From Dysidea avara (Eukaryota > Porifera > Demospongiae > Dictyoceratida > Dysideidae), in NCBI RefSeq assembly GCF_963678975.1, contig NC_089272.1, positions 63,438,574 to 63,502,573 of the forward strand: a stretch of DNA of 64,000 nt, read 5' to 3'. Position numbers and translations under genes: made by a program. Positions 12,701 to 49,860 of this stretch are shown here, piece after piece. The notes beneath the pieces were generated by a model. The model was not told the DNA's origin. It saw only the letters and a list, made by a program, of their open reading frames with translations, and did no database searches. Position 1 is the first letter of the stretch; each line of letters starts with the position of its first letter.

Positions 12701-13251
12701 GTACCCAGAAATGATTCACTCCTTGAGAACTTTTATCAATACTTGTTTAGGAAAGTGTTGTATTTGTTCATGAGTGAAGCTAGAGTCCCTAACAAAATCA
12801 TCCTCACCATATCATATAAGTGTACATGTAAACCTTAGCCATAGTGAACGTATGTGAGCAACCTTGCTAGTAGTCACTAGTGTGAATACGACAGACCTAA
12901 ATTCTCCATAAACCAAACTCTCAGAATAGCTGAAGTGACTATTTTATTACCATGTTTTGTCATCACCTGTATGTTCTATATGAGCATTCAGTTGAGATAT
13001 GTATACAAATTAATGAGCGTTACTCATCCAAAACACATTTAATAATGTACTGACGAGGTGCACAGGTGTTCAGATAATGAAAGTCCCACTGTATGTGTAT
13101 GATAATGTACTATCTTTATAGGTGCCAGTTTTGCAAGTCATCTCGTGAAGTGTCCTCCATCAAGGTCCCATATGCCTTCAAGTTGTTGATACAAGAACTA
13201 CAAGCAATGAACATAGTCCCTAAACTACTACTGGACCGACACATTGAGTAG
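3741..13251 (+). CDS. POLR3B: DNA-directed RNA polymerase III subunit RPC2, full gene of four exons
   Basis: The second-largest, catalytic subunit of RNA polymerase III, which makes tRNA, 5S rRNA and U6 in the nucleus. I assemble exons 3741-3775, 3833-5999, 10950-12070 and 13122-13251. All junctions have gt/ag and keep phase, giving 1150 residues, close to the usual size of about 1130. The first intron is only 57 bp. The second (4.95 kb) and third (1.05 kb) are repeat-filled. The short first exon supplies [12 protein letters not shown]. If it is really 5' UTR, translation would begin at an ATG at 3864, 3873 or 3891, and the family-conserved part starts at [15 protein letters not shown]. The protein has the standard Rpb2 fold order from protrusion to C-terminal zinc ribbon, and no disabling change was seen. 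The last exon exists in extra copies downstream. Confidence 0.93.
3833..5999 (+). CDS. POLR3B: POLR3B exon 2 (protrusion, lobe, fork, external 2)
   Basis: This single 2167-bp exon carries about 63% of the protein. In order it shows [19 protein letters not shown] and the protrusion, [33 protein letters not shown] and the lobe. [16 protein letters not shown] marks the fork region, followed by [18 protein letters not shown] and the invariant [19 protein letters not shown] block. The acceptor is ttcttttag and the donor is CAA|gtaagt at 5999/6000. Confidence 0.95.
6098..6310 (+). repeat. Possible SINE remnant with B-box-like motif
   Basis: GGTTCAAACTG near 6126 resembles a Pol III B box. A downstream segment (gggcttggttgtgcctaacc) recurs with few changes at about 7563. 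A dispersed short element is likely. Whether it is tRNA-derived is uncertain because no good A box is visible. Confidence 0.3.
6589..6832. mobile_element. Foldback MITE, 244 bp
   Basis: The two halves are inverted copies, with ends ACAAGTTAAAGG at 6589 and its complement at 6832. The arms pair through a shared tagggattaaatgttcacta segment to a centre near 6710. There is no coding capacity. It resembles the foldback at 31297-31556 in layout and in the tagggattaaa motif. Confidence 0.8.
6970..7265 (+). repeat. Two tandem copies of a 156-bp module
   Basis: TTCAGCTATGTTCAGCCCG at 6985 recurs at 7141, and the surrounding 156 bp align. An open frame across both copies repeats FSYVQPVTQ. It has no family resemblance and sits in an intron, so I read it as repeat-derived and not as a gene. 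Confidence 0.6.
8700..9530 (+). repeat. 29-bp tandem array, about 28 units
   Basis: Units contain tcctttatagagaggttaaa and differ mostly at one or two sites, with occasional variants (acattg, acaatg) near the unit end. Homogeneity is high in the centre and falls at both ends. The array ends in a degenerate unit with ggaagg. A decayed relic of the same unit lies at 48565-48735. Confidence 0.95.
9729..9820. repeat. (TG)n microsatellite
   Basis: An uninterrupted TG dinucleotide tract of about 46 repeats, immediately upstream of the tRNA-derived SINE. Confidence 0.98.
9821..10241 (+). mobile_element. tRNA-derived SINE
   Basis: The head is tRNA-like. An A box, TAGCCAAGTGG, lies at 9829-9839 and a B box, GGTTTGATTCC, at 9868-9878, with 28 nt between them, followed by the ttgagcca end of a tRNA body. 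A roughly 350-bp unrelated body follows, ending in a TTTGC/TTTGT-rich 3' tail. Pol III internal promoters of this spacing are diagnostic of tRNA-derived SINEs. It is flanked on both sides by TG tracts. Confidence 0.85.
10242..10298. repeat. (TG)n microsatellite after SINE
   Basis: A second TG tract of about 28 repeats directly abuts the SINE tail. It may be the other half of an interrupted microsatellite or a target-site duplication grown by slippage. Confidence 0.95.
10950..12070 (+). CDS. POLR3B: POLR3B exon 3 (hybrid-binding, catalytic and wall regions, clamp)
   Basis: The exon begins with [11 protein letters not shown] in phase 0. It includes [18 protein letters not shown], the acidic pair of which helps bind the second catalytic magnesium. 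It also includes [11 protein letters not shown], the [15 protein letters not shown] block and the switch/anchor region ending in [17 protein letters not shown]. The exon stops inside the zinc ribbon after [11 protein letters not shown], so the second cysteine pair must come from the next exon. Confidence 0.95.
13122..13251 (+). CDS. POLR3B: POLR3B exon 4, original terminal exon
   Basis: The split codon TG|G gives Trp. CQFCKSS then supplies the last two zinc-ribbon cysteines, followed by [13 protein letters not shown] and the end [12 protein letters not shown]. The acceptor is ctttatag. Family members end at the same place, so this is the true C-terminus. Confidence 0.95.
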
Positions 13252-13694
13252 TGATGAACCTCATATGATGTGGGAGTTGTTTTTAATGGTCAATTATTGT
13301 ACATGATTATTGTAATAATATAAAAGCAATCTATATTAAGAGTGTTTACAGTCAAGTATCATGTGAGCTGTATTGTTCAGTTCCTATAATGATTGGTGGA
13401 AATTGTGTTGTACAGCGAACTATCGTGACCTGGGCCAACTTGGGCTCAAAGTTTTGTGGCTATTGTTTAGGAGGTAGAATGTCCACTGTACCATTGTACA
13501 TACATCGTATGAAGGATTTTTAGGTGTCATGTGTCAGTGACCTCATCACACAACTTGGGCAGGTCAGTTGTAAACATCAGGCTTTCGAGTTAGCCATGTA
13601 ATAGTTAGGTGTATTTGAATTTGTATTGATGCTCACGGTCTGGCATTGGCTGGACCACTTTTCAGCTACTTGAATTTGTAAAAAGACCAAGATA

Positions 13695-13761
13695 CTCTAA
13701 TAGAGCAGTCATCATAATATATTCTAATAGAATTACCAGTCGTTAAAATACTCTAATAGAG
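13695..13761. repeat. CTCTAATAGAG motif cluster
   Basis: Two exact copies (13695-13705, 13751-13761) and a degenerate one between them. The 11-mer CTCTAWTAGAG also occurs at 23670, 25695, 25722, 39598, 39654, 50889 and 51957. A one-base variant lies near 33360. It is usually embedded in GATACTCTAATAGAGCAGTC or its complement. Confidence 0.85.
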
Positions 13762-14367
13762 CGTTTGGTATAGTATATAGCCACTGTTCTAAACCATTAC
13801 ATGATTTACATCTGTGTTAATTTTCCTCAAATCACAAGTTTCAGTGAGTCATCTACGTGGTACTACAATTGGCTAATTGATCATGAATGTCATACATGCA
13901 TTAGCAATCCCAATGGCTTCTGTATCTCAAAGAACTAAGCTTTCACTGAAAGTTTAAAAGTAAAATTAGAAATGAATTAATTGGTACTGTAGTACAAAAT
14001 TACCAGGATGTTAACAAAGACCATTGGACAAAATTACCCTTGATGTTGACAAAAAGGAGAAAGGGGCTTTGCATAGCTTTCCAGATGCCATTTCAGAGCA
14101 TGGTCTATCTTTTCAAAAATTTCTCTGGAGAAGTATGCCCCCAGACCCCCTTAGCTTGGCATGCTGTGTGTGCTTAGCACATACAGTTGCATATCACATG
14201 GAAGCACATAATCTAAAAATCACTTCAGTTCAATAAATAGCTAGTAGTATGCATGACTATGACCTCCATTGCACACTCAAAATCTCTGGGCTCCGGCCCT
14301 CTTGATGTTGCCAGTCAGTTATATGGAATATCTTTGTGAGGTGACACAGATCTTGAAGTCTTGAAGT

Positions 14368-14650
14368 GATTTTGCTCTGCTGTCAGTTGTAAGAACATTT
14401 TTATAGTGACTCATGCAAATATATATGTATATAGTCTTGATCTGTCTATAGTGACTCAACATCAGCTTATGGTGAACTACATGCCATGAAGCTGTTAACC
14501 AGTGCAGGGATTTTGCTCTGCTGTCAGTTGTAAGAACATTTTTATAGTGACTCATGCAAATATATACGTATATAGTCTTGATCTGTCTATAATGACTCAA
14601 CATCAGCTCATGGTGAACTACATGCCATGAAGCTGTTAACCAGTGGAGTG
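14368..14650 (+). repeat. 141-bp tandem duplication (copy A)
   Basis: TTTTGCTCTGCTGTCAGTTG begins units at about 14369 and 14510. The same pair exists at 40268-40555, so it predates the segmental duplication. One diverged unit remains near 49725. Confidence 0.85.
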
Positions 14651-14965
14651 ACTTAAAAGGAGTGGCCAAAAAAGCTAGCTTTAAATGACCTCAGATTGAA
14701 TCTAGAAGTACTTTTAGAGAAATGATTGAGATCTGGGTCCACTGGATGCTAATATCTCTTAATATAATTTTCAAAATTTCCTGGAGGAATGTCCCAAACC
14801 CCAAGTTAAGACATGTCATCCCCCAGCCCCTCCCCCCTAAATAAAGGTGCACCTGGGACAACATGTGAAATGATTATCTTTCAACATCGACATTGGTGAT
14901 CATGAGGAGGCAAATATTATATTATTGTAAAAACACAGTACAACTTACAAAACCAAGATAATATG

Positions 14966-48564: not shown

Positions 48565-48735
48565 TATATGTACAGTGTCTTTTATAGATTAATGTATAGT
48601 GACCTTTATAAAGAGGTTATATTACGGTGTCTTCATAGAGAAGTAAATGTATAGTGGTGACCTTTATAGAGAGGTTATATGTACAGTGTCTTTTATAGAA
48701 TAATGTATAGTGACCTTTATAGAGAGGTTATACCA
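48565..48735 (+). repeat. Relic of the 29-bp tandem array
   Basis: Five to six degenerate units with acctttatagagaggttata, related to the array at 8700-9530. Confidence 0.75.
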
Positions 48736-48768
48736 GTAGCTGAAGTGACTGCTTTATTGTATGCTGTT

Positions 48769-48824
48769 ACAGGGCTCCACTGAAAATCAGCTTAAGCTGA
48801 GTGGACTCCCCGTTTAAATATTAC
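48769..48824 (+). mobile_element. Short LINE 3' hairpin copy
   Basis: agggctccactgaaaatcag and ctgagtggactccc form the same stem as at 43960-44010. Only this terminus is present. Confidence 0.5.
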
Positions 48825-48954
48825 AGCATTTTGTCATCACCTGTATGTTCAATATGAGCAGTTATATGAAGCTATACACATAAGTGTTAGTTATTTATTT
48901 AACTGAATAATACTTTATTATACTGTATTGTACTGGTGACTAAAGTGGTACACA

Positions 48955-49860
48955 GGTGTTCGAATAATGGAAATCCCACTGTATGTGTATGATAATGTAA
49001 TACCTTTATAGGTGCCAGTTTTGCAAGTCATCTCATGAAGTGTCCTCCATCGAGGTCCCATATGTCTTCAAGTTGTTGATACAAGAACTACAGGCAATGA
49101 CCATAGTCCCTAAACTACTATATACTCGACCGACACATTGAGTAGTGATGACCCTCATATGAATGTGGGAGTTGTTTTTAATGATCAATTATTGTACATG
49201 ATTGGCGAGTGTTTGTTCAACCGTATGTCTGACTCATATGACCGTTCCAAAATTTTATGTAATGAATACAGACAGTCTCAAGCTAAGGCTTGCCCATGAT
49301 GCTGTGTAGCGTCCGTCTAGTTATTGTTTAATATAAAGGCAACGTATGTTAAGAGTGTTTGCAGTTAAGTATTATGTGAGCTGTATTGTGCAGTTTCTAA
49401 TGATTGGTGGAAATTGTGTTGTACAGTGAACTATTGTGACCTGTTCTAAATGGGCCAACTGGGGCTAAAAGTTTTATGACTATTATTTAGTACAGTAGGT
49501 ATAGAATATCCATTGTACATACATTAGAATTACTTATTTGAAGGGATTTTTTGATATCTACGATAGTGACCTAATCTTTCAAGTTGAGCAGGTCAGTTGT
49601 AAACAGATTTTTGAGTTGGCCATTAAATGGTGTGTAATATGCAAGTGGATTTGATGTCGCTAATCAGTTATATGGAAATCTGGCAAAATAACACTGAGGT
49701 GACACTGAGATCTTGAAGTCTTGGAGGTGATTTTGCTCTGCTGGCAGTTATAAATTTGAACAATTCTAGTGACTTGTGCAAATACTATCTTGATCTGCTT
49801 AATAACTCAATATTAGCTCATGGTGATATTTCAGCTATTGGTTGAATCTAATTTTAAGCA
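48955..49860 (+). repeat. Segmental duplication, diverged copy C
   Basis: Aligns with the region around 13060-13500 and with part of the 141-bp unit, at lower identity than copy B and with losses and insertions. Confidence 0.75.
49012..49143 (+). pseudogene. Duplicate POLR3B terminal exon (copy C), broken
   Basis: The acceptor and CQFCKSS are kept. There are four amino-acid changes (Arg to His, Lys to Glu, Ala to Val, Asn to Thr). A small insertion before the RHIE end shifts the frame. Non-functional as a POLR3B terminus. Confidence 0.8.

Follow-up and report, generated by a model that had tools for sequence, protein, structure and literature searches.

POLR3B and the copies of its terminal exon

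The window comprises 64,000 nucleotides of the Dysidea avara genome (contig NC_089272.1, positions 63,438,574 to 63,502,573) and contains the gene POLR3B. The gene is identified by the open frame 10950-12074, which matches residues 718-1091 of 1133 of RNA polymerase III subunit RPC2 (E=3.3e-201; human chain 7a6h_B), and by Rpb2 domains. The match leaves 42 residues, and exon A, with an AG acceptor ahead, codes for exactly 42 after the split Trp codon (42 codons plus stop). The donor before the terminal exon is located at 12070/12071, and a minisatellite (8699-9522) sits between coding stretches of the gene. Open frames of an RNase_T exonuclease (2165-2923, plus strand) and a Pterin_4a dehydratase (3174-3479, minus strand) adjoin POLR3B. 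The parts and copies of the gene are:

3801-6020, plus strand: large upstream coding stretch, an open frame with Rpb2 domains 1-5 and the start of 6
10950-12070, plus strand: preceding exon, open frame to the donor
13122-13251, plus strand: copy A of the terminal exon (coding part and stop codon), beside the rest of the gene
39034-39163, plus strand: copy B of the terminal exon, with three silent differences and an unchanged protein
49012-49145, plus strand: copy C of the terminal exon, altered by four replacements and by an insertion of 4 nt
59113-59190, plus strand: relic D, covering the last part of the exon and 3' UTR (78 nt at 78%, E=3.6e-8)

Both upstream coding stretches occur once in the window and its flanks (10 kb on the upstream and 40 kb on the downstream side), without any second tblastn match below E=1. 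The terminal exon is present at all places where an earlier note had put it (13122, 39034 and 49012, with a relic near 59.1 kb). Exon B possesses an intact acceptor AG, reading phase and complete protein, as that note had it; it differs from exon A at A positions 13167, 13218 and 13233, and all three differences are silent, since the translations are identical. Exon C carries the four replacements reported earlier (R>H, K>E, A>V, N>T) besides one silent change, and the reported frameshift proves to be a 4-nt insertion; the shifted frame by chance still stops after 42 residues. Relic D is followed by a collinear match further downstream, judged by eye.

A search of the 550.8-Mb genome with 13000-13600 yields at least 11 matches, a lower bound because only the best candidates are scored: copies A and B, copy C in two pieces, and seven matches of 33-39 nt. 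Relic D is absent from these matches, and no further long copy of the exon region is found among the 11 scored matches listed. Immediately upstream of exon A, some 39 nt (13061-13100) recur at 93-97% identity in at least seven places on three other contigs. The 33-39 nt matches hit only this short dispersed repeat in the POLR3B intron and not the exon.

Repeated units and gene p

Self-comparison of the window reveals long direct and collinear homology between the surroundings of exons A and B. The exon copies are parts of far longer homologous blocks, a point missed in the earlier note. The A-B blocks, all direct, are:

A 12205-12827 = B 37823-38456
A 12819-16740 = B 38731-42621
A 16892-17645 = B 44030-44759
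A 25193-25463 = B 44755-45020
A 25806-26753 = B 45031-45975
A 32547-32640 = B 46395-46486 (weaker)

The array, which is eroded, is composed of the following units and insertions:

12205-17645, plus strand: left half of unit A and counterpart of 37823-44759, from which it differs at 274/5150 columns (5.3%); a six-base overlap between two blocks makes a few columns enter this total twice
17646-25192: A-only stretch of 7.5 kb, with ACATATA at both edges and an Integrase_H2C2 frame
25193-26753: right half of unit A and counterpart of 44755-45975, with mismatches at 70/352 non-coding columns
37823-44759, plus strand: left half of unit B
38457-38730: B-only insertion of 274 bp, upstream of exon B, with AGTGTACA at both edges
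44755-45975: right half of unit B
48562-48732, plus strand: minisatellite resembling the one at 8699-9522, preceding unit C
48787-54135: remains of unit C, of which 48829-49203, 49321-49631, 49651-49826 and 53931-54135 match unit A

The 7.5-kb A-only stretch is probably an insertion. The minisatellite ahead of unit C suggests that this unit began further upstream. Units A (14368-14645) and B (40269-40552) share a 141-bp internal duplication, both copies of which match a single stretch of C. A perfect CTGC tetranucleotide repeat of 727 bp (181.8 copies) occupies 29440-30166, and neither Rfam at gathering threshold nor ARAGORN finds anything in the window.

The collinear direct homology continues past the exon edges into the intron, the 3' flank and a neighbouring gene, as in a partial tandem (segmental) duplication, and, as far as the window with 40 kb downstream and 10 kb upstream shows, only part of POLR3B has been copied. 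A processed (retro) copy is rejected because intron sequence is duplicated together with the exon, and transposon capture of the exon alone because the homologous blocks are kilobases long.

The co-duplicated neighbour, here called gene p, is a tandem family whose open frame spans about 280 residues; three copies are open and one is a fragment:

25895-26761, minus strand: copy p1, whose open frame follows an acceptor-like site
33799-34626, minus strand: copy p3, open frame
45120-45980, minus strand: copy p2, whose open frame follows an acceptor-like site
48191-48343, minus strand: fragment

Fewer replacement than silent changes per site, both between p1 and p2 (pN 0.070 vs pS 0.144, P=0.003) and between p1 and p3 (pN 0.230 vs pS 0.522, P=2e-12), indicate that gene p is kept by selection; for the POLR3B exon copies the tests reveal no such retention. 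Pfam yields no match to any of the three p copies at E<=0.001; with the limit relaxed to E<=5, it gives sub-threshold matches for two copies (E 0.012 and 0.053) and nothing for the remaining one. For p2, the sole copy tried, there is no PDB sequence match at E<=1, and structure prediction from the three copies is uninformative (mean pLDDT 28).

Divergence of the exons and their surroundings

Divergence between A and B is 5.3% in the left half (12205-17645) and rises to 17-24% just right of the A-only stretch. This step is abrupt along collinear homologs, as gene conversion would leave it, with 30/729 differences to the left of the boundary vs 45/259 to the right in BLAST alignments (P=1.7e-10) and 63/264 to the right by MAFFT. 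The right-hand non-coding value of 70/352 comes from a short sample (352 columns), and block 25806-26753 as a whole reaches only 8.2% (77/938) because it is mostly constrained coding sequence. Silent sites of p1 and p2, also to the right, diverge by 14.4%, and the A-C flanks give 103/502. Block 12822-16745 depends slightly on the alignment, with 173/3814 differences under mafft --auto and 191/3821 under --localpair. Copy p3 is equally far from p1 and p2 (pS 0.52 and 0.55), hence p2 is not a fast lineage; as the private changes relative to C are also nearly equal (11 in A and 12 in B over 633 sites), a fast lineage fails to explain the step. Most likely, the left half was homogenised after the duplication by gene conversion halting at the A-only stretch. 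Conversion of the whole left half, not specific to the exon, fits as the simplest account of the step. The left half is itself uneven, with 53/600 differences in 12205-12827, 16/131 in 12822-12952 and, outside the exon, the lowest value in 13426-14639 (19/1200), a segment as extreme in 0/100 simple and 2/100 block permutations, so that several conversions, or something else, may be involved.

Exon B does not stand out from this background. A-B differences amount to 3/131 in the exon (counted to one base past the stop codon), 7/163 in the adjoining intron and 14/339 downstream. The comparison of exon and flank substitution rates proposed in the earlier note thus reveals no difference (3/131 vs 21/502 in the near flanks, Fisher P=0.44), nor does the exon deviate from the whole left half (P=0.16); among 5020 overlapping segments of 131 columns taken from the homologous block, 37% contain no more than three mismatches. 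Polarised with C as outgroup, one silent change falls on the A branch and two on the B branch. About 30% of random changes in the exon would be silent, and two silent of two on the B branch are expected without selection at P=0.088. The absence of any replacement there has P=0.09-0.23 over three neutral (flank) rates. Treating both copies as unconstrained gives P=0.026 for all three changes being silent, which overstates the case because A is the working copy and constrained anyway. Constraint beyond that of the flanks, as a functional alternative last exon would display, is not detected; with only three differences the power of these tests is low, and exon B may still be constrained.

Exon C differs from A at 6/131 sites vs 103/502 in the wider A-C flanks (P=3e-6), the flank figure being inflated by a poorly aligning part (12955-13056). 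This lower divergence of the exon is as constraint would give. In the 122 nt of non-coding DNA touching exon C, 9/122 sites differ (by eye), and of the exon's own five changes four are replacements and one is silent. Its history would fit a short patch, younger or converted, that subsequently decayed neutrally; constraint may also have acted for part of its life.

Origin of the exon copies

The POLR3B exon copies are very probably passengers in a tandem duplication, whatever homogenised the left half. Repeated tandem duplication would have affected a segment that starts inside POLR3B (in the last intron, as regards unit B) and extends beyond the minus-strand gene p; units A, B and C and relic D would be its products, with the terminal exon carried along. 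No upstream POLR3B exon is found alongside the extra copies, which are most likely without function. What the extra units retain as a gene is p, with its three open copies and its deficit of replacement changes. Later, the left half of unit B would have been homogenised with unit A, most likely by conversion, as the sharp step suggests, and exon B would still code for the same protein because of this homogenisation. Most likely, the locus represents an ordinary partial gene duplication by an ordinary mechanism.

The main rival to conversion is that the left half of A was duplicated once more, at a later time, into an array that already existed; the exon would be a passenger in this case too. 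It would produce the same divergence step, and the left edge of the homology (12205/37823) is sharp; we regard it as unlikely, since the halves of B meet cleanly, arranged as in unit A (44759/44755), and conversion needs no second coincidence. Both accounts are covered by the passenger interpretation. A false duplication is less probable still, i.e. the left halves of A and B being two alleles set in tandem by the assembler. Divergence of about 5% could be allelic in a very polymorphic animal, but right-hand non-coding and synonymous sites differ by 14-24%, units A and B carry different insertions, and copies C and D attest repeated duplication.

Very improbable, in turn, is the use of copy B as an alternative last exon under purifying selection; that B may be so used had been suggested in the earlier note from its silent-only changes. 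Splicing to exon B would have to bypass exon A together with its 3' end and remove an intron of 27 kb in which exon A, p1, p3 and the A-only stretch all lie. Its intact acceptor, phase and protein would suit such use, as would the three silent differences with P=0.026 if both copies were free, whereas only two changes fall on the B branch, where the absence of replacements is unsurprising (P=0.09-0.23), and the exon is no more similar than its flanks. As the product of B is identical to that of A, nothing would be gained at the protein level. The proposal lacks support: the exon diverges like its flanks, and the putative conversion block spans both, as the sequence part of the refutation set out in the earlier note required. 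From the same note, the suggestion that gene conversion keeps B similar holds for the whole 12205-17645 block and not for the exon alone. Just as improbable, judging from the sequence, is that read-through past A occasionally joins exon B to POLR3B, in which case the array would supply a spare 3' end (same peptide, other 3' UTR) and a conversion partner able to rewrite the terminal exon of this essential subunit.

Under the passenger interpretation, the locus illustrates that a duplicated exon with silent changes only can give the appearance of selection where one copy is the parent under constraint and the whole block around the exon arose, or was homogenised, recently. Conversion from a dead copy into the parent exon would be relevant to the mutational load of an essential gene; private changes relative to C, about equal in A and B, give no direction.

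Tandem exon duplication can give rise to alternative exons, and the extra POLR3B copy with intact acceptor and phase resembles such cases. It differs from them in that copy B lies 26 kb away past the native 3' end, encodes an identical peptide and has flanks duplicated alike. A further parallel is with partial gene duplicates, which in the review PMC3449122 are duplications covering part of one ancestral gene, occur at relatively high frequencies in several eukaryote genomes and may in many cases be dead ends. The POLR3B copy likewise covers part of the gene only; unlike the duplicates described in that review, several terminal-exon copies lie here side by side at differing stages of decay. 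Section 5 of the same review treats large indels and mobile element insertions as homology breaks that may retard conversion between paralogs. In the window, similarly, the homogenised stretch on the POLR3B side ends at a large one-copy stretch, whereas conversion is here deduced from a divergence step in one genome and not from a population or pedigree tract.
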